From the NCBI GenBank assembly GCA_027028245.1, contig JALVJO010000154.1:1-58509 (forward strand): a DNA stretch of 58,509 nucleotides. The letters run 5' to 3'. The position numbers and the translations under genes were made by a program. Positions within the stretch are counted from its first letter, which is position 1. Every line of letters starts with the position of its first letter. The notes under the pieces were generated by a model. It saw only the letters and a list, made by a program, of their open reading frames with translations, ran no database searches and was not told the DNA's origin. Shown in pieces: positions 20,090 to 39,429 of the stretch. Origin of the DNA: Deltaproteobacteria bacterium. GTDB taxonomy: Bacteria > Desulfobacterota > Dissulfuribacteria > Dissulfuribacterales > QOAL01.

Positions 20090-22597
20090 ATGAAAAAGAA
20101 AGAAAAGAGGCCTCTTGGCCGGATATTTCAATATTTCAGAAAAGTACTTGATCTGAACAACCAGATACTTGAGGAAATTTCCAACGCAGAAAGGGTGCTG
20201 GGGGGCAGCTATCTTTTTGACAGTGCCTTTTTGGCAGGTTTTGTTACCAGGGTCTGTGAAACAACCAGGGAAGTCATATACAACCTGAACAGCCTCACCA
20301 GCGGCCGTTATATGGTTCTTTATGATAGGCTGGAACAGCTGCGCTGCACCCTGGAGGATATCATGTCCGGCGGAAGCGGGCCCTTGGGAGAACAGCTTAC
20401 AGTCTCCTATGATGAATTAAACCGGGACCTTGATGACATAGCAGGGGCCAAAAATGCCAATCTTGCAGATATTCATAACAATTTCCAGATAAAAATACCC
20501 CGGGGGTTTGCCATAACCGTCAAGGCCTACAGGTTGTTTTTAGATACCAACCAAATCATACCCAGGATAAAAGAACTTTACGATAGGAATCCTGATGCAG
20601 ACACTGTTAAGAATGAGGTGAAGGTCATCTTCAAGGATGCAGAGGTGCCCGGGGAACTGGCATCAGCAGTGCAAAGCGAGCTGGAGAGGCTCTTCGAAGA
20701 CCTTGATGGGATTCCTGCCCTTGCAGTCAGAAGCAGTGCTGTTGGAGAAGACACGGAAAGGAGTTTTGCAGGCCAGTTTCATACTGTTTTGAACGTAGCT
20801 CCTGAGGACTTGTTTGATGCCTACAAGGAAGTAATCATGGCCAGGTTTATGCCTGAAGTAATGCATTATCTCGGCCCTGACGTCGAACTGGACAGTCATC
20901 CCGTGGCTGCAGGCGTTCAGGAAATGATAGATGCAGAGGTTTCAGGTGTGGCCTACACCAGGGACCCAATCGGGGGCTGCAGCGATTGTCAGGTTATTGC
21001 AGCAGTGGAAGGGCTGGGTGAAAGGCTCGTATCTGGCAGCCGCAGCGGCGATCACTTCATGCTCAAGCGTTCCTTCCCTTTTCTTCCTGTTTCCAGCACC
21101 ATAACCAGCAAGCCTTCTGATTACGTGCTACCCGGGGGGAAAAGACCCCTTGACAGGAGTACCAGCAATATGAGGCGCGGTTCCTCCCTCCTGGATATCA
21201 AGCAGCTTCAAGCCATCTCCGAGACCGCCATGCTCTGTGAAAAGGCCTTCGGCACACCCCGGGACCTGGAATGGGCCTTTGACAAAGACGGCGACTTGGT
21301 GATGCTCCAGAACAGGCGTCTCGGCATTCAGGTTCCATCCCGGTCTTGTCAAAAGGATATTGAAAAGATTGTAGAGGACTTTCCTGTGATCCTTGACGGG
21401 CTGGGGCATACTGCCCAGCTGGGAGCGGCCGCCGGCAGGGTTGTTCACGTGGATCCGGACGGCGACCTGGACAATGTGCCCGTTGGTGCCATAGTTGTCT
21501 CCAGATATGCGCATCCTAAACTGAGCCGGGTACTGAGGAAGGCCGGGGCAATAATTACGGACATTGGGAGTTCCACCGGCCACCTGGCCACCATTGCCAG
21601 GGAATACAGGGTTCCGGCCATATTCGGAACAGAAAAGGCAACCTCCCTTTTGAAAGAAGGGATGGAAGTCACAGTGGATGCCGATGAGAGAAAGGTCTAT
21701 GAGGGAATAATAGAAGATCTGGTGGAGGTTGAGGCAGGTCAAGACTGGGAATACATGGAGGAGCCTGAAATAAAGACTCTTCGAAGGATTCTAAGTTATG
21801 TTGCCCCCCTATACATGCTGGATCCCGGCGCCCCGGATTTTGTGCCTGAAAAATGCAGGACTATCCACGATATCATCCATTTTTCCCACATAAAGGCCGT
21901 TGATTCCATCATTGAACAGTTTTCCTCTGTGAAGAACCTTAAGGGCGAAAGGGCCGTTGAGCTGAAGGCAGATCTTCCCATAAAGATCATGATTATAGAC
22001 ATAGGAGGCGGCATAGAGGCAGGTACGGACACCAGGCTTGTCGAGGTTTCCCAGATCAGGAGCAGGCCCATGACTGCCCTCTTGAAGGGTCTGCTGCGGC
22101 AGGAGGCCTGGGACAAGGAGCCAATGCCCTTTGGCCTGGGTGACCTGTTCTCCAGCATGACCCGTCCGGTGAGCATGCTGACCAATCCGCCTGAGTACGA
22201 GGGTCAGAACCTTGCAATAGTAGGCGAGGATTATATGAACCTGAGCCTGCTTCTGGGCTACCATTTCAATGTGATAGATTCATTTGTCAGCGAGGAACCG
22301 GATAAAAATTACATATATTTCCGCTTTGCCGGGGGTTTTGCAGAAGAATCCAAGCGGAAGAAAAGGGCGGAACTGATCAGGTGGATCCTGGAGACCCTGG
22401 CCTTCAAGACGGAAGTGAGAAAGGATGTAGTTATAGGAAAGCTCAAGGGGCTGGAAGATTATAACCTCATGCGGGTTCTCCAGCATATAGGAGAGCTTAT
22501 AGCCTTTACCAGGCAGCTGGATGTTCGCATGGCTGATGAAGAGGCTGTGGAAAGGTTTTACAGCGGCTTCTTGGATCTTTGCAGGGAGTGCAACTGA
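20090..22597 (+). CDS. PEP-synthase-like protein 1 (ATP-grasp, His swivel domain, unrecognised C-terminus)
   Basis: First of three paralogues (835 residues). Residues 1-115 are helical. An N-terminal pyruvate-phosphate-dikinase ATP-grasp domain follows (about 120-410) with AVRSSAVGEDTERSFAGQF near 212-230. The swivelling phosphohistidine domain spans about 440-540, with His498 in SSTGHLATIARE. In PEP synthase and PPDK a PEP/pyruvate TIM barrel would come next. Here the final 280 residues instead carry motifs shared only with the two paralogues: CRTIHDI (589-595), IDIGGG (636-641), RPMTALLKG and YHFNVID. ATP-dependent phosphotransfer through the histidine is expected from the family; the acceptor is not known. 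The ribosome site is weak. Paralogue 2 follows 17 bases after the stop. Confidence 0.82.
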   Translation: MKKKEKRPLGRIFQYFRKVLDLNNQILEEISNAERVLGGSYLFDSAFLAGFVTRVCETTREVIYNLNSLTSGRYMVLYDRLEQLRCTLEDIMSGGSGPLGEQLTVSYDELNRDLDDIAGAKNANLADIHNNFQIKIPRGFAITVKAYRLFLDTNQIIPRIKELYDRNPDADTVKNEVKVIFKDAEVPGELASAVQSELERLFEDLDGIPALAVRSSAVGEDTERSFAGQFHTVLNVAPEDLFDAYKEVIMARFMPEVMHYLGPDVELDSHPVAAGVQEMIDAEVSGVAYTRDPIGGCSDCQVIAAVEGLGERLVSGSRSGDHFMLKRSFPFLPVSSTITSKPSDYVLPGGKRPLDRSTSNMRRGSSLLDIKQLQAISETAMLCEKAFGTPRDLEWAFDKDGDLVMLQNRRLGIQVPSRSCQKDIEKIVEDFPVILDGLGHTAQLGAAAGRVVHVDPDGDLDNVPVGAIVVSRYAHPKLSRVLRKAGAIITDIGSSTGHLATIAREYRVPAIFGTEKATSLLKEGMEVTVDADERKVYEGIIEDLVEVEAGQDWEYMEEPEIKTLRRILSYVAPLYMLDPGAPDFVPEKCRTIHDIIHFSHIKAVDSIIEQFSSVKNLKGERAVELKADLPIKIMIIDIGGGIEAGTDTRLVEVSQIRSRPMTALLKGLLRQEAWDKEPMPFGLGDLFSSMTRPVSMLTNPPEYEGQNLAIVGEDYMNLSLLLGYHFNVIDSFVSEEPDKNYIYFRFAGGFAEESKRKKRAELIRWILETLAFKTEVRKDVVIGKLKGLEDYNLMRVLQHIGELIAFTRQLDVRMADEEAVERFYSGFLDLCRECN

Positions 22598-22614
22598 ATG
22601 GGGAGCAATTCTTA

Positions 22615-25263
22615 ATGTTGGACTGGCTGAAAAAACAGGTAGGACGTATCCAGGAAATGCGCCAGCAGAAGGCCAGGGAGCACCTGGAGGACCTTAAATG
22701 GCGCTACCATATATTCCGCTCTCTCCTGTATGAAAATACCAAGGCAGTGGAACTCATTACTGATATTGACCTCAAGTTCAGGGAGACCGATTTTTTCGGC
22801 CCGGGTATCCGCAACAAGATACATGAGCTCATAGATGTTACAGGGGAGCTGGTGGAAAAGCTGAACCAGCTCGACTATGATCGGCATGCCGGGCTTTTCA
22901 AGATCCACAAGAAGGTCAGCGAAAGGATCACGGAGCTGCTTAACAAGGTTCCGAGCTATAAGGATATCCCCTTTTGCGTATCCCTGGATGAAAAGCTTCC
23001 AAACTGCTATGCCTTTGCCGGAGGCAAGGCCTGTACCCTGGCTCGTCTCAGGGCCGAGGGCAAGTTTCATGTACCGGGAGGGTTTTCCATCCTTGTCAGC
23101 GCCTGCCGTTACTTCCTGGAGGAAAGTGGCCTTTCCATGAACATCCTCAAGAAGCTTCAGCCTGTCCTTTCCAGGGGGGAGGAACTTACAAAGGATCTGG
23201 AAGACGAGATCAGGAAAGAGGTAATGGCAGCCAGGCTGCCGGAGCAGCTGGAAAATGCATTGAGGCACATTTCTGCGGATTATTTCCAGAAGGGCAGGGG
23301 GCTTGCGGTCCGAAGCAGCGCCCTGAGCGAGGACGGCAGGCATCATTCCTTTGCCGGGCAGTTTTCTTCTGTCCTTAACGTGGTTTCCTTTGAAGGCCTG
23401 AAGGAGGCTGTAAAGGAGGTGATCGCCAGCAATTTCAATTCCAGGAGTCTTGCCTACAGGGTCGGTGCCGGTATGAACCCCCTGGATTTCAATATGGCGG
23501 TACTTTGTATCGAGATGATAGATGCTGACAAGGCAGGTGTCATCTTTTCTGTTGATCCAAACGACCCGGACCAGAAGACCATGCTCATAAGCGCCCTTTA
23601 CGGCATGGGGGAGATGGTGGTTTCCGGTGCTTCCATGGCTGACGTCTACAAGCCCTTCAGGGATACCGGAGGCCGGGAGCTCTTTGCCCAGCCGCCGGCT
23701 GTGGCGAAAAAGATAAAGAAGCTGGCCCTGGATCCTGAAGGAGGCCTCAGGGAGGAAGACGTAGAGGAGGACAGGCAGGAAAGACCGGTCCTTTCCCAGG
23801 AAGAAGTCAGGAAACTCGTCTCTGTCAGCCTCAAAATCGAAAAGATATTGGGAGGCCCCCAGGATATAGAATGGGCCATAGACAAAGACGGAACCGTCTG
23901 GATCCTTCAGGCCAGGCCTTTAATAATGGAAGGGCCTTCTCAGAAACGAAAATTTCGTACAGAGCACAGAAAGTCTCTTTTTAAGGAGAGTCTTATAACT
24001 TCCAGGGGTATTGTAACAGGCAGGGTCAAAAAGGTCAGGAGACGGCAGGATCTGGACGAGACCTTTGATGAACCCACTATACTTGTCATGCATCGCAGCC
24101 TTGTAGATGCTGCCAAGGTTATGAGCAGGGTCAGCGGTCTTCTTGTGGATTTCGGCAACCCGGCAGACCATCTTTCATGCGTGGCAAGGGAATACGGAAG
24201 ACCCATGCTGGTTGGGCTTGTTGATGCCATGGAAAGGCTTGAGGATGGGCAGTGGGTCACTGTTGACGGTGATCATGGCAGGGTCTTCATTGCAGAGGAA
24301 GAGGAGATAGAGGAGGCCCGGAAAGAGTTTCGAAAGAGGGCCGGGGAAAAAAAAGACCAGGAGCAGTCCGGGGAAAAGGACACGGTACTGGAACAGCTTA
24401 AGAACCTCACGGTAAAACTGAATCTCACGGATGCCTATGGGCCCACTTTTTCCATTATGGAATGCCGCTCCCTCCATGACATAGTCCGCTATGTGCACGA
24501 AAAGGCTGTCATGGCCTTTTTCAAGGCCGGGGATGAGCTTCTGGAAGAAACCTCCGGGGTAGTATACAAACTGGAAAGCGACGTGCCCTTTTTTCTGCAG
24601 ATTATAGACATGGGCGGCGGACTGGTTTCTCAGCCCAAGAAAAGGCGTTTCGTGACCCCAGAGGAGATAGCATGCCGGCCCTTTAAGGCCCTTTGGAAGG
24701 GTATTTCCACCCCGGGCCTCCGGTGGGCAGGCCCTCCGCCGGTAGTCGGCAATGTAAGCGCAGTGGTGGGCCGCTGGATGTCTGATGCCGGCAGCCAAAG
24801 ACCCCTTGGCATGCCCAATTATCTTATTATAGCCAGGGATTATCTGAATCTTAACGCCCGTATGGATTTTCATTTCACAATGGTGGACTCGGTGTGCGGT
24901 ATGGACCCGCGGGAAAACCATGTCAAATTCCGTTTCAAGGGCGGAGGAACCACGCTCAAGCAGCGCAACCGGCGGGCCCGGGCCATAGGTGAGATCCTGG
25001 AGCGGGCAGATTTTTTCACCGACGTGAAGGCCGACCTGGTGAATGCCACATTTGCATTTGCCCCTGCAGAGGTCATAGAGGAAAAGCTCGTGATAGTGGG
25101 CAGGCTGCTGGGCTTTACCAGGCTCATTGATGCTGCCATGTACAGTGATGAGACTCCTCACCTGGTGGCAGATGCCTTTTATGAAGGCGATTACGAATTG
25201 AAAAGGCTGCTGGAGATGGTCAAAAAGCAGCAGGAGCTCGAGAAAGAAAAGGCTCAGGCGTGA
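22615..25263 (+). CDS. PEP-synthase-like protein 2
   Basis: Second paralogue, 882 residues from the ATG at 22615, which has GGGGAG nine bases upstream; an in-frame TTG at 22579 would overlap the preceding gene. Same layout as protein 1: helical head (1-130), ATP-grasp with AVRSSALSEDGRHHSFAGQF near residue 234, swivelling His domain with His519 in ADHLSCVARE. A charged linker rich in Glu and Lys (about 558-595) joins the unrecognised C-terminal domain with CRSLHDI, IDMGGG, RPFKALWKG and FHFTMVD. Immediate neighbour of protein 1 and probably co-transcribed. Its end overlaps that of the convergent PPP phosphatase by ten bases. Confidence 0.8.
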   Translation: MLDWLKKQVGRIQEMRQQKAREHLEDLKWRYHIFRSLLYENTKAVELITDIDLKFRETDFFGPGIRNKIHELIDVTGELVEKLNQLDYDRHAGLFKIHKKVSERITELLNKVPSYKDIPFCVSLDEKLPNCYAFAGGKACTLARLRAEGKFHVPGGFSILVSACRYFLEESGLSMNILKKLQPVLSRGEELTKDLEDEIRKEVMAARLPEQLENALRHISADYFQKGRGLAVRSSALSEDGRHHSFAGQFSSVLNVVSFEGLKEAVKEVIASNFNSRSLAYRVGAGMNPLDFNMAVLCIEMIDADKAGVIFSVDPNDPDQKTMLISALYGMGEMVVSGASMADVYKPFRDTGGRELFAQPPAVAKKIKKLALDPEGGLREEDVEEDRQERPVLSQEEVRKLVSVSLKIEKILGGPQDIEWAIDKDGTVWILQARPLIMEGPSQKRKFRTEHRKSLFKESLITSRGIVTGRVKKVRRRQDLDETFDEPTILVMHRSLVDAAKVMSRVSGLLVDFGNPADHLSCVAREYGRPMLVGLVDAMERLEDGQWVTVDGDHGRVFIAEEEEIEEARKEFRKRAGEKKDQEQSGEKDTVLEQLKNLTVKLNLTDAYGPTFSIMECRSLHDIVRYVHEKAVMAFFKAGDELLEETSGVVYKLESDVPFFLQIIDMGGGLVSQPKKRRFVTPEEIACRPFKALWKGISTPGLRWAGPPPVVGNVSAVVGRWMSDAGSQRPLGMPNYLIIARDYLNLNARMDFHFTMVDSVCGMDPRENHVKFRFKGGGTTLKQRNRRARAIGEILERADFFTDVKADLVNATFAFAPAEVIEEKLVIVGRLLGFTRLIDAAMYSDETPHLVADAFYEGDYELKRLLEMVKKQQELEKEKAQA

Positions 25264-25907
25264 AAAAATTTCATCTCCGGAAGGACAACGGCAGTAAGAA
25301 GGTTGCCGTACACGGCTCCTGTGTCGATCCCGATCTTGTCCTTTGTCACCAGTGGAAGTTCAAAGGGTGTGTGGCCGAAGACCACAGTCTTGTCGGTCTC
25401 AACCTCTGAATCCAGGAACAGGTCCCTTATTTCGCAAAATTCCATGGCTGTGTGCTTTTCCAGGGGAAGCCCGGGCATAATGCCTGCGTGAACAAATATA
25501 TAATCCTGTTCAACATGAAAGAGCTTCAGGGTCTTCAAGAATTCCACGTGTTCCTCGGGCATGAATGAAAGCTCGTGGAGATGGCTCAGGTCCTGCTGTC
25601 CGTAACTGCCCAGGAATGTCTCGATACTTTGCTGCCTCAGGTATGGAATAAGGGTTTCATCCGGAGACCTGACGTATTCCAGGAGGAGATTTTCATGGTT
25701 CCCAAGAAGACAGATAATCCTTTGGTATCTTTCCTTGAGTGCCACCAGTGTGGAAATCACATCCTTTGAACTGGGGCCCCTGCCTATGTAATCTCCCAGG
25801 AAAATCACGGTATCTGCATCCTGGATGGAAAGGCGTCGGAGAAGATCCTTGAGTTTATTGATGCAGCCGTGAATGTCTCCCACAGCTATTATCCTGCCTG
25901 ACCTCAT
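25254..25907 (-). CDS. PPP-family metallophosphatase with altered second motif
   Basis: Paralogue of the 4341-4973 gene, 217 residues. GDIHG and GNHE are intact, and GHTPFELPLV and IGIDTGAVYG match the first copy. The middle signature reads GDYIGRG rather than GDYIDRG: the first Asp, a metal ligand, is kept, but the second Asp is Gly. In PP1-type enzymes that second Asp pairs with the catalytic His of GNHE, so activity may be reduced or altered. It is transcribed against the PEP-synthase-like pair and its 3' end overlaps gene 2 by ten bases. Regulation by antisense overlap is possible but unsupported. Confidence 0.82.
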   Translation of the reverse strand: MRSGRIIAVGDIHGCINKLKDLLRRLSIQDADTVIFLGDYIGRGPSSKDVISTLVALKERYQRIICLLGNHENLLLEYVRSPDETLIPYLRQQSIETFLGSYGQQDLSHLHELSFMPEEHVEFLKTLKLFHVEQDYIFVHAGIMPGLPLEKHTAMEFCEIRDLFLDSEVETDKTVVFGHTPFELPLVTKDKIGIDTGAVYGNLLTAVVLPEMKFFHA

Positions 25908-26239
25908 AGTCTGACTCCAGAATTTTTTCCTGCTTTTTTCAGCCTGAATGTATTTTACAGAGGATAATTTATCAGGTTTTTACTTCAATTGCATTTTTAT
26001 AATTTGTCCTCATCAAGCCTTCATCCGCATCCGAGGCGGAAAGAAAAATTTTTTTGTTTCAAAATGAAGCACATGCGGCCTGAGAAATTATTTAAATTCT
26101 ATGTAGAAATAAGTACTTATAACTTCTAGAGAAGTTTGGGAAAATTTTTCAAGGAAACTTGACAGGCACATGACTTGGGTCTAAAACTTAGGCTGCTTGT
26201 GAATAAGAATTCATTCCTAAAAAGGGAGGGTGTACCATT
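25908..26239 (+). promoter_or_regulatory. Intergenic region with sigma-70 promoter and palindrome before the first TauE operon
   Basis: A 332-base gap. A good sigma-70 promoter is visible: TTGACA at 26159-26164, a 17-base spacer and TAAAAC at 26182-26187. Twenty-two bases upstream of the -35 box is a perfect palindrome AACTTCT-AG-AGAAGTT (26121-26136), a likely regulator site. Further up, the sequence is A+T rich. There is no convincing small gene. The ribosome site for the next gene is AGGGAGG. Confidence 0.5.
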
Positions 26240-26479
26240 ATGGAACAGAAAAAATCCAAAGGCCCGCTGGTCATCAAAACCTTGGTTTTCGGCGCCCTGT
26301 CCGGAGCACTGTACTACCTGCTGTTTTCAAATGTTGACTGGGTGACAACCACTTACACCATGGGAGGGTGGCATACGGTATATCCGGTGGGAACGGCCCT
26401 TGTGTTTTCGTTTGTGCACGGAACCTTTGCCAGTAATTTCCTTTCACTGCTGGGGATAGAGCCCAAGGGCGGGCATTAA
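26240..26479 (+). CDS. Small membrane protein upstream of TauE
   Basis: Seventy-nine residues with two hydrophobic segments (about 10-30 and 48-68) separated by a loop with aromatic and Gly residues (TYTMGGWHTVYPVG). A strong ribosome site (AGGGAGG) precedes the ATG. I do not recognise the family. It is 47 bases upstream of a TauE/SafE permease gene and shares its promoter, so a role as accessory subunit of that permease is the simplest reading, without direct proof. Confidence 0.75.
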   Translation: MEQKKSKGPLVIKTLVFGALSGALYYLLFSNVDWVTTTYTMGGWHTVYPVGTALVFSFVHGTFASNFLSLLGIEPKGGH

Positions 26480-26526
26480 TCTTTCGAGAGACGGCATTTG
26501 GTAGAATTTAAGAGGAGGCAACAGTA

Positions 26527-27840
26527 ATGAAACGTCTTTTTATAGCTTTAGCAATAATACTGGTCTGCTGTTTTGCAGCAAGTGCAGTGCTGGCAGGAGG
26601 CGGCGGACCGCCTAAAAACCTTATCAAGGGATTCTTCTTAAAGGTGAACCCGGATCACACTGCCGTGTTCAAGATGGATGTTACCGGTGTGGAAAGAACG
26701 CTCAAACTGCCCGAGGATATCAAGGCAGAAGATATTCCCATGAACAGGAAGGTCCTTGTTACCCTGAAGACCGAGGGGCATGAGATCACAGACGAGGTAA
26801 AGCGCGTCTCCATCATGTTCATAGATATACCGGCGAGCAAGGTGGTAGCCCTTTTGATAGTGGGCCTTATCGGCGGACTCCTCAGTGGCTTTATCGGCTC
26901 CGGCGGCGCATTCGTGCTCACTCCGTCCATGATGTCCCTTGGAGTCCCTGGTGCAGTTGCCGTTGCCAGCAACATGTGCCACAAGTTTCCCAAGGCAATG
27001 GTTGGAGCATACAAGCGCTGGAAATACGGTCAGGCAGACGTTAAGCTCGGACTGGTCATGGCAACTTCAGCCATCATCGGCGTGCAGATAGGTATTCAGA
27101 TACAGAAGTACATCCTCGATCACTGGGGGAATGCCGGCTCCAACCTCTATGTGAGCCTCATGTTCGTAATCATCCTGGTAGTTGTGGGCGGCTATGTCCT
27201 CTATGATGCATATAAGCTCCAGAAAGGAGGCAAGGAGGCAGAGACTACTAAAATCGCCCTGGCGCTTCAAAAGATCAATATTCCGCCCATGATACATTTC
27301 AAGCAGGCAGGCATCACTATTTCCCTTTGGTTTACCCTCCCAGTGGGTATTGCCACAGGTATGCTTGCAGCAACCATTGCCGTCGGAGGTTTCATCGGTG
27401 TTCCCGGTCTTATATATGTCATCGGAGCATCAGCTGTTGTTGCAAGCGCCACCGAACTGGTAATCGCATTTGTCATGGGAATGTGGGGCTCCATCCAGTG
27501 GGGTCTCAGCGGACTCATTGATATCAGGCTTACTGTCTTGATCCTTGCTGCATCCCTTTTCGGCGTTCAGCTCGGTGCCCTGGGTACAACTTACGTAAAG
27601 GACTACATGATAAAGATAGTCATGGGTGCGGTCATGCTCATAGTTTCTGTCAGCCGCGGTGCCAAGATTCCTGAATACCTGGCAGAGCTCGGTCTTCGTT
27701 CGCCTTTGCCTCCTGAAACCGCTGCCTTATATGATTCCATCAGTTTCTGGGCCTTGGTTGCCGCCCTTGCTGCTGCAGGAATAATCATATCAGTGGCCAT
27801 GATCCGGGGGATGCTCCAGGCAAAGGCAGAAGGTTTGTAG
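26527..27840 (+). CDS. TauE/SafE family sulfite/sulfonate exporter with periplasmic head
   Basis: Inner-membrane permease of the TauE/SafE (DUF81) family, 437 residues, with a typical signal peptide ending at VLAGGGG. About 75 residues of soluble periplasmic region follow (residues 28-102, GFFLKVNPDHTAVFKM...), which ordinary TauE proteins lack. The membrane part has the family repeats: GGLLSGFIGSGGAFVLTP and, in the second half, an AVGGFIGVPGLIYV segment. The family exports sulfite, sulfoacetate or other organosulfur anions. A GGAGG ribosome site precedes the ATG. It ends about 140 bases before a strong terminator at 27983. Confidence 0.88.
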   Translation: MKRLFIALAIILVCCFAASAVLAGGGGPPKNLIKGFFLKVNPDHTAVFKMDVTGVERTLKLPEDIKAEDIPMNRKVLVTLKTEGHEITDEVKRVSIMFIDIPASKVVALLIVGLIGGLLSGFIGSGGAFVLTPSMMSLGVPGAVAVASNMCHKFPKAMVGAYKRWKYGQADVKLGLVMATSAIIGVQIGIQIQKYILDHWGNAGSNLYVSLMFVIILVVVGGYVLYDAYKLQKGGKEAETTKIALALQKINIPPMIHFKQAGITISLWFTLPVGIATGMLAATIAVGGFIGVPGLIYVIGASAVVASATELVIAFVMGMWGSIQWGLSGLIDIRLTVLILAASLFGVQLGALGTTYVKDYMIKIVMGAVMLIVSVSRGAKIPEYLAELGLRSPLPPETAALYDSISFWALVAALAAAGIIISVAMIRGMLQAKAEGL

Positions 27841-27947
27841 CAGGCGGATTTCAGCAGCTCTGCGCCGAGGGATATGTTCAGACTTTTACTTGGAAGCCTG
27901 ACAGAAAAGGTGATCGGTATGGTCAGTTTCCCGATATTATCCCTGTA

Positions 27948-27964
27948 TTGACACAGCCTGTCAA
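27948..27964. promoter_or_regulatory. Perfect palindrome TTGACA-N5-TGTCAA
   Basis: A 17-base inverted repeat with identical six-base arms, between the TauE gene and the terminator. It looks like an operator for a dimeric regulator. It lies upstream of the terminator, so it may act on neither gene; position alone gives no answer. Confidence 0.3.
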
Positions 27965-27982
27965 AATAATAAGCGTATTGAG

Positions 27983-28016
27983 CGGCAGTAGTTTTGGATA
28001 CTACTGCCGTTTTTTT
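27983..28016 (+). terminator. Rho-independent terminator after the first TauE gene
   Basis: Perfect ten-base stem (CGGCAGTAGT pairs with ACTACTGCCG), seven-base loop, and a run of seven T. It ends the small membrane protein/TauE transcript and separates it from the SLC13 genes. Confidence 0.85.
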
Positions 28017-28035
28017 GTAATAAATGTTGAAAAGG

Positions 28036-28063
28036 TTTACAAACAATCCGATTGGGATAACAT
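28036..28063 (+). promoter_or_regulatory. Candidate sigma-70 promoter for the SLC13 operon
   Basis: TTTACA (28036-28041), a 16-base spacer and TAACAT (28058-28063), just after the terminator and 54 bases before the start codon at 28117. The boxes are only moderately close to consensus. Confidence 0.35.
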
Positions 28064-28116
28064 AAGAAGGCTTCCTGTTAGGGGAGCCAGAAACATTGAA
28101 AGTAGTAGGGGAGATC

Positions 28117-30069
28117 ATGAAGAACAAACTAGGTATAGGGGTGTTTGCGGGTCTGGTGTCAGTCCTGCTTCTGTTTCCGGGGCAGTCTGCCTTGGCAGAG
28201 GAGGTGATGGTAACTCAATCACCAGTGCTGACAAACGACATAATAATTGTCCTTGGCGTGCTGGTTTTTGCCATACTCCTTTTCATCTTTGAATGGGTAA
28301 GGGTGGACGTAGTAGGTATAATGATGATGGTGGTGCTGCCCCTTTTGGACGTGGTGACACCTAAACAGGCCATAAGCGGTCTGAGCTCCAATGCGGTTGT
28401 TTCCATCATTGCAGTCATTATTATCGGGGCCGGCCTGGATAAGACCGGGGTAATGAACATCCTGGCCAGGCAGATAATAAAGCTTGCAGGCAAATCAGAG
28501 ACCAGGATAATGGCGCTCATTGCAGCTACAGTGGGTCTTATTTCAAGCTTCATGCAGAACATAGGCGCGGCTGCCCTTTTCATGCCGGCTGCCACCAGGA
28601 TCAGCAAGCAGCTGGGCGTACCCATTTCCAGGATACTTATGCCCATGGGCTTTTGTGCAATCATCGGCGGATGTATCACCCTTGTTGGTTCCAGTCCCTT
28701 GATCCTCCTGAATGACCTTATGGAACAGTGGTGGAACAACAACATATCCCTCATGGGCGGCAGGGCCTTTGAACCCTTCGGCCTTTTTACCGTTACTCCC
28801 ATGGGTCTGGCCCTTCTAGTTGCCGGTATTGTCTATTTTGCCTTGCTCGGCAGGTGGATCCTTCCTTCCAAGAAGGCAGAGGATGATTCCGGGCTCATGT
28901 CAGGCCAGGTGGAAAGCCTCTATTCCATCAAGGTGGGAAAAAGGCCCTTTGAGATGGAGGTTCCCGCCAACTGGAGGGCAAGGGATCTCGACTCCCTTAA
29001 TTTCCGCCCCACATACAAGTCTACAATAGTTGGTATTTTCAAGCCCAATGAAAAGAAGATGATCCTTTCACCCCAGAGAGAGGATGTTATTGAACCTGGG
29101 GATGTCGTAGCAGTATTCGGAAGGGAAGAACACATAAAGCATATCGAACATGATCTGGGCTGGAAAGCCAAGGCCGACCTGGAGATCTTCGCAGAGATGC
29201 TTTCCCCAAACAACAGCGGAATCGTTGAGGCCGTAATCCCCCCGAATTCCAAACTCGTGGGCACAACCATGAGAGATGTCCACTTCCGGAAGACCTACGG
29301 CGTTAATCCTCTTGCGCTGAATAAGGGCGGTGAAATCTTGAGGCGCAACATTTCCAGGATGAAGCTCAGGGCCGGAGACGGAATCCTCCTTGAAGGCCCC
29401 TGGGAAAGGCTTCATTTCCTGAAGGATAAGGGCATCCTGCTTTTTACCGAGGATTTGAAGGGCGAGGTCATGAGGCCTGAAAAGGCCATTCCTGCCCTGG
29501 CCTGTCTCGCCCTGGCACTTACCCTGGCCCTTGGTTTTCACGTACAGCTTTCCATATCGCTTCTGACCGGTGCCCTGGGGATGGTGCTTTTGAAGGTCAT
29601 GTCCATTGACGAGGCATATACCTCCGTGGACTGGATGACGGTCTTTCTGCTGGGAGGCCTTATTCCCCTTGGCATTGCATTTGAGACCACTGGTGCAGCC
29701 CGCTACATTGCAACGAGCATAATGAATGCCATGGGGCAGGTAACTCCCTTTATGCTGCTTCTTATAGTAGGTCTTTTGACCTCGTTTTTTACCCTGGTGG
29801 CATCCAATGTGGGCGCAACGGTGCTCCTTGTTCCTCTTACCATGAACATGGCATTCCAAGCTGGAGCAGATCCAAAGATGGCAGCCCTTGTGGTGGGAAT
29901 TGCCGCATCAAATACCTTTGTCCTTCCCACGCATCAGGTGAATGCCCTGATCATGAGGCCGGGCGGATACCGCACTGTGGATTACGTCAGGGCTGGAACC
30001 GGTATGACCATCCTTTACCTGATAGTGATGATGGCCATGCTGAAATTCGTCTACGGAATTTCTGCTTAA
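28117..30069 (+). CDS. SLC13-family permease with TrkA-C domains
   Basis: Inner-membrane carrier of the SLC13/CitT-ArsB superfamily, about 650 residues from the ATG at 28117 (AGGGGAG just upstream; a TTG 21 bases earlier is also in frame). After a signal-like first helix there is a hydrophobic half (residues 40-250), then a cytosolic insert with two TrkA-C (RCK-C) domains: YSIKVGKRPFEMEVP to REEHIKHIEHDL, and ANNSGIVEAVIPP-like to LLEGPWERLHFL. The second hydrophobic half follows. This layout is found in bacterial permeases for sulfate, dicarboxylates or cysteine-like substrates. Its TrkA-C pair likely senses a ligand. The next carrier gene starts 16 bases later, behind an AGGAGG site. Confidence 0.85.
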   Translation: MKNKLGIGVFAGLVSVLLLFPGQSALAEEVMVTQSPVLTNDIIIVLGVLVFAILLFIFEWVRVDVVGIMMMVVLPLLDVVTPKQAISGLSSNAVVSIIAVIIIGAGLDKTGVMNILARQIIKLAGKSETRIMALIAATVGLISSFMQNIGAAALFMPAATRISKQLGVPISRILMPMGFCAIIGGCITLVGSSPLILLNDLMEQWWNNNISLMGGRAFEPFGLFTVTPMGLALLVAGIVYFALLGRWILPSKKAEDDSGLMSGQVESLYSIKVGKRPFEMEVPANWRARDLDSLNFRPTYKSTIVGIFKPNEKKMILSPQREDVIEPGDVVAVFGREEHIKHIEHDLGWKAKADLEIFAEMLSPNNSGIVEAVIPPNSKLVGTTMRDVHFRKTYGVNPLALNKGGEILRRNISRMKLRAGDGILLEGPWERLHFLKDKGILLFTEDLKGEVMRPEKAIPALACLALALTLALGFHVQLSISLLTGALGMVLLKVMSIDEAYTSVDWMTVFLLGGLIPLGIAFETTGAARYIATSIMNAMGQVTPFMLLLIVGLLTSFFTLVASNVGATVLLVPLTMNMAFQAGADPKMAALVVGIAASNTFVLPTHQVNALIMRPGGYRTVDYVRAGTGMTILYLIVMMAMLKFVYGISA

Positions 30070-30085
30070 AAGGAGGGTCTGAATC

Positions 30086-31927: not shown

Positions 31928-31982
31928 TCAGATGGAGATTTTAATTAGATAGAAGGTCTTAAACAGGAAAAGAGAGGAAAAA

Positions 31983-32945: not shown

Positions 32946-33060
32946 AGGGGATTGAATATGCAGAAGCGGGTCTTTTGCTTGTATGGACCCAGCTGCTGTC
33001 TTTTAACTGGGTGCTGTTTTTCGATAATATCAGGCCCTTAACAAGGAGGTTTTTTGAATC

Positions 33061-33846
33061 ATGAATAGGCAAAGGCAATTATTTGCGACGTTTTTGATAT
33101 GTATTTTGGGCTGTTTTTTCCCTGGAGTGTCCGGCAGTGCACATGCCGGGGATTACAAGAACAGCATAGGAATGGAATTTGTGCTCCTGCAGCCGGGAAC
33201 TTTTATGATGGGCGCCAGCAGGCATTTTGAAAATGCCGATATAGACGAACTTCCAAGGCATAAGGTTACCATAACCAGGCCCTTTTATATGGGAAAATAC
33301 GAGGTGACCCAGGCACAGTGGGTAAAGGTGATGGGCAATAACCCAAGCCACTTCAAGGGGCACAATAGGCCTGTGGAAAATGTTTCATGGAATGATGCCA
33401 TGGAATTTATCAAGAAGCTTAATGAGATGGAAAAGACCGATAAATACAGGCTTCCCACAGAGGCAGAATGGGAATATGCAGCCAGGGCAGGGGAGCCGGG
33501 CTCCTACTGCTTTGGAGACATGGTGGGAGATCTGCCGCTCTTTGCATGGTATTATCATAACTCCAATGCCCAAACACATAACGTGGGTGAACTCAAGCCC
33601 AATGTCTGGGGTCTTTATGATATGCACGGAAACGTGTGGGAGTGGTGCAGCGACTGGTACAGCTTTGATTATTATTCCAAGTCTCCTGAAAAGGACCCGG
33701 CAGGTCCTGAAAACGGTGTCTTGAAGGTGGAAAGAGGCGGAGGCTGGGACGCCCTTCCTGATGCCTGCCGATCGGCATACAGAAACGGTTTTTTCCCCTT
33801 TAAGGGAAATTCCGCCCTTGGTTTCAGGGTGGTGAGAATGCCCTAA
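33061..33846 (+). CDS. Exported SUMF1/formylglycine-enzyme-like protein
   Basis: A 261-residue protein with a Sec signal peptide (first 30 residues, ending SAHAGDY) and the SUMF1/FGE-sulfatase domain: MEFVLLQPGTFMMG, YEVTQAQWVKVMG, LPTEAEWEYAARAG, MHGNVWEWCSDWY and a C-terminal LGFRVVRM. True formylglycine-generating enzymes need two Cys near the end; here the region reads GGGWDALPDACRSAYR, so only one Cys remains and sulfatase activation is unlikely. It may instead be a binding or scaffold protein of this fold. No sulfatase is encoded in the window. An AAGGAGG site lies upstream and a strong terminator follows. Confidence 0.87.
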   Translation: MNRQRQLFATFLICILGCFFPGVSGSAHAGDYKNSIGMEFVLLQPGTFMMGASRHFENADIDELPRHKVTITRPFYMGKYEVTQAQWVKVMGNNPSHFKGHNRPVENVSWNDAMEFIKKLNEMEKTDKYRLPTEAEWEYAARAGEPGSYCFGDMVGDLPLFAWYYHNSNAQTHNVGELKPNVWGLYDMHGNVWEWCSDWYSFDYYSKSPEKDPAGPENGVLKVERGGGWDALPDACRSAYRNGFFPFKGNSALGFRVVRMP

Positions 33847-33870
33847 ACAGTCTTAGAATTTTTTCGGTGC

Positions 33871-33908
33871 AAAAAGGCCGGCAGCCCTTCCAGGGTGCCG
33901 GCCTTTTT
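33871..33908. terminator. Rho-independent terminator, bidirectional
   Basis: AAAAAGGCCGGCA pairs with TGCCGGCCTTTTT around an inner CCCT/AGGG stem and a short loop. A-run on one side and T-run on the other allow termination in both directions. It closes the SLC13/USP/SUMF1 block. Confidence 0.9.
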
Positions 33909-33947
33909 GTGTATTTTTGAAAATTTTGTATTTTATATAATTTTTCA

Positions 33948-33972
33948 CAACTGTTTCGAAGAGAAACAGTTG
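33948..33972. promoter_or_regulatory. Upstream activator palindrome 1
   Basis: CAACTGTTTC and GAAACAGTTG, perfect ten-base arms around five bases. It is one of two sites sharing TGTTTC-N5-GAAACA, about 170 bases upstream of a sigma-54 promoter. The geometry is that of an enhancer site for an NtrC-type activator. Confidence 0.6.
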
Positions 33973-34016
33973 TTGCACATGATAATGTCCTGCTATTTCA
34001 AATAGTTATAATCATA

Positions 34017-34033
34017 TGTTTCTTAATGAAACA
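34017..34033. promoter_or_regulatory. Upstream activator palindrome 2
   Basis: TGTTTC-TTAAT-GAAACA, the same half-sites and spacing as the palindrome centred 65 bases upstream, close to six helical turns away. A third, different palindrome (TTGCGC-N6-GCGCAA) lies at 34050-34067 between it and the promoter. Confidence 0.6.
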
Positions 34034-34116
34034 CAAATCATGTTATTTTTTGCGCATGAAAGCGCAAGGCCCCTTTTTTATAAAATAAAGTCTTTAATAA
34101 CAGTAAATTAGAAGCA

Positions 34117-34132
34117 TGGCATTACCCTTGCA
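34117..34132 (+). promoter_or_regulatory. Sigma-54 (-24/-12) promoter
   Basis: TGGCATTACCCTTGCA has the invariant GG and GC dinucleotides ten bases apart, and TGGCA/TTGCA match the consensus. It lies about 100 bases before the Usp-like gene and should drive the Usp-like/TauE/TIGR02186 genes. Confidence 0.65.
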
Positions 34133-34234
34133 GATAATTTTACGAAAGAAGTGCAGCAGTCAATATTCGCTGAATTTTACTACAAAAATAACCGGCAGAA
34201 ATAAAGAACCGGCTTGAGGGTGAAAGGTCAGGGA

Positions 34235-34750
34235 ATGGGGAAGGTAATAGCACTCCTGGCAGACGGCAGCAATTCTGACCTGTATGCATGTTTTTGTGCA
34301 GTCAAGCTTGCCAGGAGAATGGAGGCAAAACTCTTGTCAGTACTTCTTATGTCTGAAAGAAATGAAAATCCCCCAAGGGAAAGCTCTGAGCGCTGGCAAG
34401 CATGTTCCCCATCAGAATTTTTGTATCTTATTTCAAGTCTGGGAAACTTCGAGGGAGTGGAAGTCTCCTATCACCTCATTGATGAACGGGACGAGGAGAA
34501 CCTGGTGGAATTTCTGATCTCCAAAAAGGTCCCCTGCATTATCATGGGAACGCAGGATCAGGAGGATTTTGATAAAAAACAGAAATGGCTGTCGCAGCTT
34601 GTTCAGAAGATTTATGCAAACCGGCACTGGTACCTGGGGGACCTGACCGTGTTTTTGGCAAAGCCCTGGAGGGAGAAGGACTTCAAGAAGGTGCTAAAGG
34701 AGCTGAGCTCGGATTGCAGTCTGTATCCAATAGAGATGGTATTTGCATGA
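34235..34750 (+). CDS. Usp-like hypothetical protein
   Basis: Cytosolic protein of about 171 residues from the ATG at 34235 (AAAGG a few bases upstream; a TTG 21 bases earlier is in frame). The fold reads like a divergent UspA: MGKVIALLADGSNSDLYACF, then LARRMEAKLLSVLLM, and later VPCIIMGTQDQEDF at the place of the usual strand before the ATP loop. The GxxG nucleotide loop is not kept, so it may not bind ATP. It is the first gene after the sigma-54 promoter and 98 bases upstream of the second TauE gene. Confidence 0.65.
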   Translation: MGKVIALLADGSNSDLYACFCAVKLARRMEAKLLSVLLMSERNENPPRESSERWQACSPSEFLYLISSLGNFEGVEVSYHLIDERDEENLVEFLISKKVPCIIMGTQDQEDFDKKQKWLSQLVQKIYANRHWYLGDLTVFLAKPWREKDFKKVLKELSSDCSLYPIEMVFA

Positions 34751-34848
34751 AGAGTTCAGGGAGAAATATGTCCCAAATTTACAGGCGGACCTGAAGGGCA
34801 GGGATGCCTGTACGGTCACGGGATAAAAAATAATTAGGAGGGTTTGAT

Positions 34849-35805
34849 ATGTATGTTTATTTGCCGATTGCTTTAACCAGTGTAAGTCTCTGGCTGGTAG
34901 TGGGCCTGGGGCTGCTGGTCGGGCTCTTATCCGGTCTGTTCGGGGTCGGAGGGGGGTTTCTCATGACTCCTCTCCTGATGATGATAGGAATACCGCCCAC
35001 AGTGGCTGCAGCCACGGATGCCAACCAGATCGTGGCTGCATCTGCCTCCGGTACCCTGGCGCACTGGAGACTTGGGAACGTGGATTTCAAGATGGGACTC
35101 CTGCTCCTGGTGGGAGGTTTCACAGGCGGTGCCCTTGGAGTTCATGTCATCAAGGTACTGCGAGCTACAGGAGGAGCTGATTTTCTCATCAAGATGACCT
35201 ATGTGATCATGCTCGGTGTTGTGGGCACCTTCATGTTTTTCGAAAGCCTTAATGCCCTCAAAAAGCAGAAGGCCCAGGCCAATCTTTCCGAGGCGGAACT
35301 TGCAGCAGCGGAAGAAAAGAAAAAGGCCAAGGCAGCCAAGGCCAAGAAGGGCTTGCTCTCTTCACTGCCTTTCCAGATCCACTTTGAAAAATCAGGCGTG
35401 ACCCATTCTGCAATACTACCCGTGGGACTTGGCATCTTTGTGGGTGTCCTTGCAGCTATTATGGGTGTCGGCGGCGGGTTCCTGATGGTTCCGGTCATGA
35501 TATATCTTCTCAGGATGCCCATGCACGTGGTGGTCGGCACAAGTCTTTTCCAGATCATGTTTACCTGCGTAGAGGTAACATTTCTCCAGGCCTATCAGAA
35601 CCACACCGTGGATATCATACTTGCCATTCTGCTTCTGGCAGGTTCCACAATCGGGGCCCAGATAGGTACCAAGCTCGGGAAAAAGCTTCACGGCGATCAG
35701 CTCAAGATTCTGCTGGCCATCATTGTCCTTGGTGTCACAGTGAAGATGATTCTCGGCCTGATACTTGAACCATCCTTGTTACTGGCACACGGAGGAGGGC
35801 ACTGA
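34849..35805 (+). CDS. TauE/SafE family exporter, second copy
   Basis: Inner-membrane permease of 318 residues, the more common TauE/SafE size. The two half-repeats are clear: GLLSGLFGVGGGFLMTPLLM near residue 25 and AAIMGVGGGFLMVPVMIY near residue 205. An Ala/Lys-rich cytosolic loop (about 145-170) separates them. It lacks the periplasmic head of the copy at 26527. The family exports sulfite or organosulfur anions. An AGGAGGG site precedes the ATG; the next gene starts two bases after the stop. The pairing with a TIGR02186-type gene is known for this family. Confidence 0.9.
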   Translation: MYVYLPIALTSVSLWLVVGLGLLVGLLSGLFGVGGGFLMTPLLMMIGIPPTVAAATDANQIVAASASGTLAHWRLGNVDFKMGLLLLVGGFTGGALGVHVIKVLRATGGADFLIKMTYVIMLGVVGTFMFFESLNALKKQKAQANLSEAELAAAEEKKKAKAAKAKKGLLSSLPFQIHFEKSGVTHSAILPVGLGIFVGVLAAIMGVGGGFLMVPVMIYLLRMPMHVVVGTSLFQIMFTCVEVTFLQAYQNHTVDIILAILLLAGSTIGAQIGTKLGKKLHGDQLKILLAIIVLGVTVKMILGLILEPSLLLAHGGGH

Positions 35806-35807
35806 TC

Positions 35808-36587
35808 ATGACAAAGCTTAAAAGAATCACTAAGTACTTTGGTGCGCTGTTTGCTGTTCTTGCCCTTGGTATGTTCATAAGCTCTCAGGCCCTGGCCCTT
35901 ACCTGCAAGGTTACGCCGGCCAAGATTCCCATAAGCCTGGGATACCACGGCACCAAGGTAAAGATAACAGGCGAGGGACTCCAGGCGCCGGATCTTATCG
36001 TCCAGATACATTCGCCTCCAGGTGAAGAACACCTGAAATACAAGGGCAAGGCAGGAGGCATTTTCTGGATGAAGCTCGGCACCATGACCTTTGAAAACGT
36101 ACCAGGTGTATACCTTGTCTATTCAACCAGGGATACCCACGAGCTTCTGTCTCCGGAAAAATGTGCAGAACTTTCCATAGGATTTGATTCCCTGAAGAAC
36201 AAGGCGGAGATCAAAAGCACTTTGAAGAACCTGGACAGGGATAAATGGCTCAAGGAGTTCATGAAGTTTAAAAAAGAGGAACATCTCTACCTGGAAAAGT
36301 CAGGTGTTGTAAAGGTTGATCAGGCCAACCAGACCTATGAACTGGAAATAGATTGGCCTTTTGAGGCTCCTCCCGGGGAATATGACGTTGAGGTCTTTGC
36401 CGTAAAGGATCAGCAGGTAATTGATAAGGCAGAGGCCAAGATAAAGGATCAGAGGGTTGGAATTGAAGAGATCCTTTCCCACATGGCCTTCGAAAGACCG
36501 GCACTTTATGGTATCATTGCACTGGTTGTTGCCATCATCGCCGGATTTGGTGTGGGCATGATATTCAAAGGGGGTGGAGCACACTAA
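35808..36587 (+). CDS. TIGR02186-like membrane-anchored periplasmic protein
   Basis: A 259-residue protein: signal peptide (about 1-30, ending ALALTCKV), a periplasmic beta-rich domain (32-230) and one C-terminal transmembrane helix (ALYGIIALVVAIIAGFGVG). The stretch SLGYHGTKVKITGEGLQAPD and the WMKLG...VPGVYLVYS region fit the PF09608/TIGR02186 family, whose genes sit next to TauE/SafE permeases. Its function is unknown, but linkage suggests a partner in sulfur-anion export. It begins two bases after the TauE stop, so translation is probably coupled. Confidence 0.83.
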   Translation: MTKLKRITKYFGALFAVLALGMFISSQALALTCKVTPAKIPISLGYHGTKVKITGEGLQAPDLIVQIHSPPGEEHLKYKGKAGGIFWMKLGTMTFENVPGVYLVYSTRDTHELLSPEKCAELSIGFDSLKNKAEIKSTLKNLDRDKWLKEFMKFKKEEHLYLEKSGVVKVDQANQTYELEIDWPFEAPPGEYDVEVFAVKDQQVIDKAEAKIKDQRVGIEEILSHMAFERPALYGIIALVVAIIAGFGVGMIFKGGGAH

Positions 36588-36630
36588 GCTTAGTTTTCAG
36601 GTTAATGCCTGATCTTCCGAATCCTCGTCC

Positions 36631-36672
36631 AGCCCCTGCCTTGCTGCATACTTAAGAAGGCCGGGGCTTTTT
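36631..36672 (+). terminator. Rho-independent terminator after TIGR02186-like gene
   Basis: AGCCCCTGCCTT pairs with AAGGCCGGGGCT with one mismatch, loop of about 12 bases, then TTTTTATTT. Confidence 0.78.
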
Positions 36673-36840
36673 ATTTCAGGCAATCAGCCCGAAATTTCAT
36701 GGAGTCTGCAGTGCTGTCAGGGGTTGAATTTCGAATATATATCTATTTTCCTTAGGTCCTGCAGCTTCGGCAAATTTACGTGCAGCAAAAGGCTTTCGGC
36801 CCTCATAATCAGTTGTATTGTAAGCGGAGAAAAAACAGAA

Positions 36841-39429
36841 GTGGCATTTTTACAAGGAATATTTGAGAAGATAAAGGGCGGCCTGAGGGCTGGTCAGGCT
36901 CAGCGGGAAGAATCCATAAAGGTCAAGTTCGAACAGTTCAAGAAGGTTCTCAGTTCCAACCAGGCTGCTCTTGAAATAATTGCCGACATGGGGGAGAAGC
37001 TCAGCGGGGATTACATATTCGACCGGCGCTATATTGAAGAATCATATGAAAAGCTTTCAGAGGCGGTTTTAAAGAGCGTTAATGCCCTTAATGCCCTGTG
37101 CGATAATAAATACAAGGATCTTTACGGGGTTTACGACAGGGTTACCAGGCATCTTGTAGAGATCCTGAAGCAGAGGGAAGACAGGAACGGGCCACCTGTC
37201 ATATTGCTCAAGGCCGTTACCAGGGCGCATAATGCAGTGGTGGGAGGCAAGGCAAAACACCTGGCCAGGATAATCAGGGACCTGGCACTGCCTGTCCCCG
37301 ACGGGTTTGTCATAACCACCAGGGCATATCACGACGTCATTGCTTACAGCGGTCTGGCACCCTCCATAGACAGACTCGAAGGCCTTATCGCATCCCCGGT
37401 GGTGGACCATGAAGAAATAGAAAATCTCCGCAGGGACGTACAAGGCAGAATTGGTAAGCTGGAACCGCCTCCCCGCCTGCTGGATGCCATTGCAGAAGCC
37501 CTTGATCTCATGGATCTGGGCAGTATGGACAGACCTTATATGGCTGTCAGAAGCAGTGCACAGGAAGAGGACATGGATTTTTCCTTTGCCGGACAGTTTG
37601 ATACTGTTCTCAACGTCCGGGCACGGCCCCTGGACATATTCCTTGCCTACAGAAAGGTCATGGCAAGTCTCTTCGGAAAACACGTAATCGAATACAGAAG
37701 GACAATCTTTGAAGGCGAAGGGCAGATGTCTATTGCCGCCCTATGTCAGCTTATGGTGGATGCCAGGAGCAGCGGGGTCCTTTTTACCATTGATCCCCTG
37801 GATTCTCACTCGGAAGACATGGTAATTGTGGGAAACTGGGGACAGGGAGAGGCTGTTGTAGACGGAAAGATGCCTACAGACACCTTCCGTGTCTCCAGGA
37901 AGAACGGACTCAAGATCGCAAGCCGCGAGATAAACAGGAAAAAGGAGGCCCTTTATCTCAGCCTTGCCGGAGGGCTGGAAAAAAGGGAAGTTCCGGAAGA
38001 AATGCAGAAACAACCCTGTTTGACGGATGAAGAGGTTCTGAAGCTTGCTGAGATGGGATTGAGGCTTGAAAATTATTTCAAGCGGCCCCAGGATGTGGAG
38101 TGGGTCGTGGACCAAAGGGATGATCTGCTCATTCTTCAATCCAGGGAGCTTCTTGTGAAAGAACAGGATCATATAGAAAGGGAGCTTCTGGATCTGGAGG
38201 ATAAATACGAGGTCATCTCAAGCGGCGTGGGCCTTACTGCCCAGCAGGGAATCGGCTGCGGACCAGTCAAGATAGCAAGAACCATAAAGGATCTTGATAA
38301 TATTCCGGAAGGCGCTGTACTCGTGAGCCCCAGGGACATGTCCAATTTTGTCCAGGTGATGAAAAAGGTCTCTGCCATTGTTACTGAGGTGGGTACACCT
38401 GTCAGCCACATGGCAACCATCTGCAGGGAGCTCGGCGTGCCATGCCTGGTTAATGTAAGCGGCATATTGTCAAAGGTGCATGACGGCATGGAAATCACTG
38501 TGGATGCCGAGGACCAGAAGATTTACAAGGGAAAGGTCAGGGAGCTTCTGATCTACAGGAATTCCAGGTCAATGAACGTGTTCGAATCCAGGGATTTCAG
38601 GCTCTTGAGGAGACTCCTGGACGCAGTTGCCCCCCTTAACCTGGTGGATCCCCTGATAGAAGAGTTCCGCATGGAAAACTGCGAAACCTACCACGATATT
38701 CTGAGATTCATTCACGAAAAGGCGGTTCAGGAGCTCATTGAGATAGGAAAAGACGAAAAAAGGCTCCTTAAGGGCAACATAACAAAGCGTCTCGAGCTGC
38801 CCATCCCTGCAGGGATACTGTGCGTTGACCTTGGAGGCGGGATTTCAAGTGATGCACCTGATGATCACTGCGAATTGAAACATATTACGTCCATTCCCTT
38901 CAGGGCACTGCTCAAGGGGATGACCGCTCCCGGGATATGGCATACCACAGTCATGGATGTCAGCTTTAAGGACATGGTATCAAGCATGCTGAATGCGCCC
39001 ACCGATGCCCTGGATGGTCAGTACTCCGGACACAACATAGCAATAATAACCAGGGAATATGTGAACTTGAGTCTCAGGTTCGGTTATCATTTCAATATCG
39101 TAGATGCCTACTGCAGTGATTTTCCAAGAGATAACCATATATATTTCAGGTTTCTTGGAGGGGCCACAGACCTAACCAAGAGGTCCAGGCGGGCAAGGTT
39201 AATTGCAGAGATACTCAAGGCCTATGACCTGAACGTCAAGACCAAGGGGGATGTGGTCACTGCCAGGATGGGCAACATGCAGAGGAAGGACATGGAATAC
39301 ATTCTTGAGATTCTCGGCAAGCTCATAGGCTTCACCAGGCAGCTTGATGTTCACATGGAAAGCGATGTGCAAGTGCAGAGGTATCTGGAGGCCTTTCTAA
39401 GGGGAGAATATGACGTGGCACTGCATTGA
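36841..39429 (+). CDS. PEP-synthase-like protein 3
   Basis: Third paralogue of the 20090 and 22615 genes, 862 residues from a GTG at 36841 (GGAGA ten bases upstream). The open frame reaches back to 36724, but those codons have no counterpart in the paralogues. Order: helical head (1-125), ATP-grasp domain with AVRSSAQEEDMDFSFAGQF near 236, swivelling domain with His523 in TPVSHMATICRE, then the shared C-terminal domain: CETYHDI, VDLGGG, IPFRALLKG, YHFNIVD and NHIYFRFLGG. It is 11 kb from the other two copies, at the other end of the TauE/SLC13 block. Likely monocistronic. Confidence 0.82.
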   Translation: MAFLQGIFEKIKGGLRAGQAQREESIKVKFEQFKKVLSSNQAALEIIADMGEKLSGDYIFDRRYIEESYEKLSEAVLKSVNALNALCDNKYKDLYGVYDRVTRHLVEILKQREDRNGPPVILLKAVTRAHNAVVGGKAKHLARIIRDLALPVPDGFVITTRAYHDVIAYSGLAPSIDRLEGLIASPVVDHEEIENLRRDVQGRIGKLEPPPRLLDAIAEALDLMDLGSMDRPYMAVRSSAQEEDMDFSFAGQFDTVLNVRARPLDIFLAYRKVMASLFGKHVIEYRRTIFEGEGQMSIAALCQLMVDARSSGVLFTIDPLDSHSEDMVIVGNWGQGEAVVDGKMPTDTFRVSRKNGLKIASREINRKKEALYLSLAGGLEKREVPEEMQKQPCLTDEEVLKLAEMGLRLENYFKRPQDVEWVVDQRDDLLILQSRELLVKEQDHIERELLDLEDKYEVISSGVGLTAQQGIGCGPVKIARTIKDLDNIPEGAVLVSPRDMSNFVQVMKKVSAIVTEVGTPVSHMATICRELGVPCLVNVSGILSKVHDGMEITVDAEDQKIYKGKVRELLIYRNSRSMNVFESRDFRLLRRLLDAVAPLNLVDPLIEEFRMENCETYHDILRFIHEKAVQELIEIGKDEKRLLKGNITKRLELPIPAGILCVDLGGGISSDAPDDHCELKHITSIPFRALLKGMTAPGIWHTTVMDVSFKDMVSSMLNAPTDALDGQYSGHNIAIITREYVNLSLRFGYHFNIVDAYCSDFPRDNHIYFRFLGGATDLTKRSRRARLIAEILKAYDLNVKTKGDVVTARMGNMQRKDMEYILEILGKLIGFTRQLDVHMESDVQVQRYLEAFLRGEYDVALH

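Follow-up and report, generated by a model that had tools for sequence, protein, structure and literature searches.

PEP synthase and PPDK (PpsA, PPDK) carry an ATP-grasp domain, a swivelling phospho-His domain and a PEP/pyruvate barrel. The chemistry of this class of dikinases is known, as is replacement of the pyruvate domain by another substrate domain, which has been described for rifampin phosphotransferase (RPH) and HpeHI (PMC4844700, PMC12167813). In phenylphosphate synthase, too, the pyruvate part is replaced. PTS enzyme I and EI-Ntr (PtsP) have the same phospho-His fold, pass phosphate to a partner protein and play a role in transport and regulation, with the phosphate coming from PEP via the barrel.

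A PPDK-like protein is also annotated (DVU0246) in the nitrate cluster of Desulfovibrio, i.e., DVU0251-DVU0245 and Dde_0597-0605 (Korte 2014, PMC4001038). According to the part of that report considered here, insertions in DVU0246, DVU0247, DVU0250 or DVU0251 let growth proceed uninhibited at 100 mM nitrate; entry of nitrate via a leaky thiosulfate transporter was the authors' suggestion. A mutant in the DVU0245 phosphatase stayed nitrate-sensitive, whereas the mutant in its G20 homologue did not. The same part of the report does not mention an unusual C-terminal domain of DVU0246 or a family to which it belongs, and among open papers we found no other literature on the family described below.

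Here we analyze three dikinase-like proteins, P1, P2 and P3, encoded on a 58,509-nucleotide stretch of a Desulfobacterota genome (contig JALVJO010000154.1), hereafter the window. They and their relatives resemble PEP synthase and PPDK in having the ATP-grasp and swivelling phospho-His domains in the same order and with the catalytic residues kept, but differ in an extra ~100-aa N-terminal helical stretch, in their linkage to two-component genes and in carrying a different C-terminal domain (CTD) instead of the PEP/pyruvate barrel. Whereas in RPH the His domain is C-terminal and an unrelated rifampin domain is present, the His domain of the present family is central, and RPH models run against the family proteins all scored far below cut-offs. 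HpeHI, unlike the family, is split into two proteins. We know of no receiver linkage for RPH, phenylphosphate synthase or HpeHI. In contrast to PTS enzyme I and EI-Ntr, the family would draw its phosphate from ATP via the ATP-grasp domain, and it has no barrel.

Dikinase-like paralogues in the window

The preliminary description of the window had recognized three paralogues with ATP-grasp and phosphohistidine domains. Profile searches bore this out: each of P1, P2 and P3 matched PPDK_N with E values from 1e-58 to 1e-74 and PEP-utilizers with E values from 1e-14 to 1e-17. The phosphohistidines that it named, i.e., His498, His519 and His523 counted from its own start codons, fall on the respective codons given in Table 1. 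P2, the start of which overlaps the end of P1, is 894 aa long from a TTG and 882 aa from the ATG at 22615; P3 measures 901 aa from a TTG and ~862 aa from codon 36841. A fourth paralogue, also with the CTD, is present in the same genome (L004, contig C33), as are a canonical PEP synthase (contig C57) and a PPDK-like protein (contig C66). With E values down to 1e-134 for profile matches in other genomes, chance can be excluded, at the level of sequence, as the source of the architecture shared by P1-P3.

Table 1. Genes and features of the dikinase loci; positions refer to the window unless another locus is named.
Feature	Position	Strand	Remarks
Cysteine synthase/cysteinyl-tRNA synthetase ORF	17348-19720	-	790 aa
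P1 dikinase-like protein	20090..22597	+	835 aa; N-terminal helices, ATP-grasp, phospho-His codon 21581, CTD from ~21740; orthologue group in tree "kinase > X > X"
P2 dikinase-like protein	22579..25263	+	His codon 24169; CTD from ~24316; orthologue group in tree "X > X"
Calcineurin-like phosphoesterase	25254..25907	-	converges on P2; in 12/78 loci, mostly beside P1-P2
SLC13/CitMHS-type transporter	28096-30069	+	two internal TrkA_C regulatory stretches
Protein without Pfam match	34214-34750	+	178 aa
TauE/SafE-type anion transporter (TauE2)	34849..35805	+	upstream of P3; TauE2 in 44/78 loci
Alph_Pro_TM membrane protein	35808..36587	+	directly upstream of P3; in 48/78 loci
P3 dikinase-like protein	36724..39429	+	His codon 38407; CTD from ~38551
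Receiver-only response regulator	39525..39980	+	151 aa; directly downstream of P3; phospho-acceptor site D38, D39, D82, T110, K132 intact
Sigma-54 response regulator	40132..41541	-	frequent in family loci
Sensor histidine kinase	41538..43022	-	frequent in family loci
DSP-type phosphatase	L224:11925-13013		363 aa; directly after fourth paralogue; weak CxxCxxCC-like match

The front half of the proteins is well preserved throughout the family. Among 184 members, the ATP-grasp Lys, Arg, Glu, Gln and Arg are kept in 178-182 and the catalytic His in 182, and since both are so widely retained, ATP-dependent formation of phospho-His is expected. In the full-length model the front aligned with PEP synthase 2ols (Z 33.8, 289 residues, rmsd 2.2) and also with RPH. 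In PHROGs, the family proteins matched phage proteins through the phospho-His region only.

The C-terminal domain

A CTD of ~285 aa is common to P1, P2, P3 and the C33 paralogue, and it had been described as different from the PEP/pyruvate barrel. The searches agree with this. None of the four paralogues of the genome, nor L179 or L049, matched PEP-utilizers_C (PF02896) at E<=1; this absence is real, because the genome's own PEP synthase (C57), which served as positive control, matched PF02896 with E 1.4e-61 in the same library. The CTD had no match in Pfam or NCBIfam and no significant match among PDB sequences, and such library matches as it gave among 94 members were scattered and at chance level. 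The motifs quoted in the preliminary description are present in P1-P3 and kept in 60-94 homologues, where C-x3-HDI-x4-H, D-x-GGG, P..A..KG and Y.NL, as well as HF...D, N...FRF.GG, R..R and G.L...R..D, are invariant or nearly so. Fourteen columns are invariant in 94 CTD sequences, mostly His, Asp, Arg or Gly; invariant residues include H657, D658, H664, D702, H789, R823, R872 and D875 (P3 numbering), and these columns suggest a ligand or active site.

The structure of the CTD was predicted alone from an alignment of 94 sequences (pLDDT 83, pTM 0.76). The model runs from helices through long strands to a helix-strand-strand-helix arrangement and, on this prediction, the CTD is not a beta-alpha barrel. 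In Foldseek searches with the model as query, no match in either library fell below E 0.01; the best pdb hit had E 0.027, and TM-scores (by query) stayed below 0.25. The best VIA-align hit (Z 7.2) lay inside the tool's stated background range, and the viral library yielded nothing at E<=0.001. The lack of a fold match does not prove the CTD fold to be new. Weak Foldseek matches to DHHA1-containing chains (best E 0.027) hinted at a relation to DHHA1 that hhalign, with a probability of 0.1 against a small and poor DHHA1 set, did not support. The rifampin-binding domain was absent from the structural matches of the CTD model, an absence that leaves a relation between the two possible.

The database names and the PEP synthase-type front half could be taken to mean that these proteins are PEP synthases or PPDKs in disguise, with a CTD that is a strongly diverged pyruvate-binding domain, and that they make PEP. 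We consider this very improbable in view of the missing PF02896 match despite the positive control, the non-barrel prediction, the lack of a significant structural match and the presence of a true PEP synthase elsewhere in this genome. A structural match of the C-terminus to the PEP barrel was sought by PF02896, predicted structure, Foldseek and VIA, and none was found; a PEP barrel identity of the CTD was rejected on sequence searches with a positive control and on the predicted secondary structure. Given the apparently intact first-half dikinase chemistry and a CTD predicted not to be a barrel, a phosphate acceptor other than pyruvate would be the natural reading of the family.

Gene neighbourhood and two-component partners

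Neighbouring genes were counted in 78 loci collected by CTD similarity. The paralogues had been thought to bracket a module of transporter and stress genes. A conserved gene module does exist, but it is not a general set of transporter and stress genes: in only 3-7 of the 78 loci do SLC13, Usp and FGE genes lie near the family, and they were rejected as module parts. The partners, as revised, are a receiver-only regulator, a histidine kinase and TauE together with either Alph_Pro_TM or PtxB, with a phosphatase added in some groups. Response regulators occur in 68 and histidine kinases in 54 of the 78 loci, and no TauE gene was seen beside the Nitrospirota members. In the window, the SLC13/CitMHS-type gene is followed by a second SLC13-type gene and then a Usp gene. 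The 178-aa protein is conserved upstream of TauE2 in several families and has, by eye, a universal-stress-type look. The cysteine synthase ORF is a single frame in which a PALP domain (residues 9-287) is fused to cysteinyl-tRNA synthetase (325-769); sequence related to this fusion also lies near dikinase genes in L007, L008 and L012.

The preliminary description had missed the receiver-only regulator directly after P3, and this gene proved to have a conserved position. To limit the weight of close relatives, a diverse set of 40 loci, mostly one per taxonomic family, was drawn regardless of context, and 37 of them had enough flank. A receiver-only regulator within <=400 bp and on the same strand was present in 29 of these 37, against ~0.02 expected from the density of regulators elsewhere in the same stretches, a figure that measures conservation and not independent events, as the loci are related by descent. 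The same arrangement was seen in 52 of the 64 loci of another set. The phospho-acceptor residues of the adjacent receivers are 100% conserved. There is no adjacent receiver in eight of the 37 diverse loci, in most lectin-tailed members or at the P1-P2 pair of the window.

In a tree, members group by context, i.e., Alph_Pro_TM>X>receiver, kinase>X>X, X>X and kinase-receiver>X. P3-type genes sit in the order TauE - Alph_Pro_TM - P3 - receiver, and P1 and P2 form a pair after a kinase. Many relatives have both in a single run, TauE - Alph_Pro_TM - P3 - receiver - kinase - P1 - P2; in the window this run is broken up, as P1-P2 lie at 20-25 kb but P3 lies at 37-39 kb. In L174, L180 and L209 a sigma-54 regulator ORF of ~900-1000 aa lies directly upstream of a dikinase paralogue, a context that recalls Ddes_1643-1644 of D. 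desulfuricans (PMC5701242).

Two further readings bear on these neighbours. Transporters and phosphatases near the family, together with the many invariant polar residues of the CTD, could indicate a metabolite kinase, in which the CTD would bind a small molecule from the transporters (e.g., an organic acid or sulfonate), the phospho-His would phosphorylate it and the two-component genes would merely regulate expression; the closest chemical precedents, RPH and HpeHI, phosphorylate small molecules (PMC4844700, PMC12167813). We think this rather unlikely, however: the receiver cannot itself regulate expression because it is without a DNA-binding output domain, no recurring catabolic enzymes were found beside the family, and two to three tandem paralogues, with as many as nine in one genome, are more than a single step of a pathway usually has. 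The second reading is a direct phosphorelay, in which the phospho-His would give phosphate to, or take it from, the Asp of the adjacent receiver, making the dikinase an ATP-charged, non-kinase entry to or exit from the relay and leaving the CTD a docking or regulatory role. A stand-alone receiver with an intact site does adjoin the dikinase, and 85 of 88 receivers have a Lys at D+2, as in the phosphorelay receiver Spo0F (Asp54, Lys56; PMC3035606), although Lys at this position is found in other receivers too. Moreover, the strong conservation of the CTD would need another reason, and the normal donor, a kinase, is usually there as well, so that direct exchange seems to us distinctly improbable. 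To our knowledge, there is no precedent for a receiver that accepts phosphate from this His fold.

Relation to the Desulfovibrio nitrate cluster

Bacteria closely related to D. vulgaris, with 84-88% identity in cytochrome c3, have the gene order TauE - PtxB - kinase - 119-aa receiver - CTD-bearing member - DSP phosphatase, and the order TauE - PtxB - kinase - receiver - dikinase - DSP phosphatase was met in L176, L179, L211 and others. As far as the considered part of the nitrate-cluster report goes, DVU0251-DVU0245 and Dde_0597-0605 correspond to these loci in gene order, sizes and annotations, i.e., TauE, a small protein, PtxB, kinase, 119-aa receiver (360-bp gene), a PPDK_N and PEP-utilizers protein and a DSP phosphatase (1110-bp gene) (PMC4001038). 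From gene order, sizes and annotation, by analogy with the relatives, DVU0246 is very probably a member of the family. Its annotated product of 744 aa is ~80-140 aa shorter than those of relatives, perhaps due to a late start codon. P1-P3 of the window are without the nitrate-cluster order, and the C33 paralogue keeps only the pair of dikinase and DSP phosphatase, which recurs in 17 other loci, two of them overlapping.

Distribution of the family

The family is large. Of 395 genomes sampled from the phylum (Desulfobacterota), 146 contain the CTD, and it was also present in 41 of the 59 genomes of one Desulfovibrio-containing family and in 38 of 148 Nitrospirota genomes, the phylum of a Thermodesulfovibrionales contig. 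Genomes often contain several copies, up to nine. Protein length is fairly uniform, mostly 835-930 aa, except in a lectin-tailed subgroup (L175, L210, L213-L219) with a C-terminal extension of ~210 aa resembling lectin or 3-keto-disaccharide hydrolase domains, which is odd for a dikinase family that is otherwise cytosolic. No fusion of receiver and dikinase was found among the long open frames checked; the lectin-like extension was found instead.

Discussion

Taken together, the dikinase front, the CTD, and the linked receiver, kinase, transporter and phosphatase genes suggest a phosphotransfer step that is regulated and linked to transport. We propose, with confidence and doubt in about equal measure, that the family comprises ATP-driven phosphotransferases with a putative acceptor, which would serve as two-component outputs acting on anion transport. 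That they form a distinct subfamily of swivelling dikinases is part of the same joint explanation and is put forward with the same even balance. As in PEP synthase and RPH, and judging from the conserved residues, the ATP-grasp domain would take ATP and the mobile His domain would become phosphorylated, with release of AMP and Pi. The phosphoryl group would then pass to an acceptor docking at the new CTD rather than to pyruvate. A sensor kinase, partnered in the periplasm or the membrane by PtxB or Alph_Pro_TM, would control the receiver-only regulator, which in turn would control the dikinase. The physiological output would be uptake by, or activity of, the TauE-type anion transporter, and the step may be reversed by the neighbouring phosphatase, of the DSP type in the nitrate-cluster group and of the calcineurin type beside P1-P2.

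We infer this direction of control from the arrangement of the genes; linkage of this kind is compatible both with a regulator that controls the enzyme and with one that receives its phosphate, and cannot tell the two apart. Likewise, the candidate acceptors are a protein, a small molecule or the receiver Asp, between which sequence cannot decide. A bolder version is offered as a tentative possibility: the family would be a new kind of signalling enzyme, an ATP-driven swivelling dikinase that has an acceptor domain not seen before, that either trades phosphate with a stand-alone response regulator or is gated by it, and that governs the uptake of anions in sulfate-reducing bacteria and related lineages.

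A described family of the same architecture was looked for in libraries and open papers and none was found; within this scope, neither the CTD nor the link to receivers nor the family itself appears to have been described. On the reading proposed here, many genes of sulfate reducers and Nitrospirota that are annotated as PEP synthase or PPDK would carry the wrong name. If receiver and dikinase act together, the family would join two-component signalling with the PEP-utilising enzymes, which are usually treated separately. Finally, the family may provide a molecular lead on why Desulfovibrio mutants become resistant to nitrate, an unexplained result with a bearing on oil-well souring and its control.
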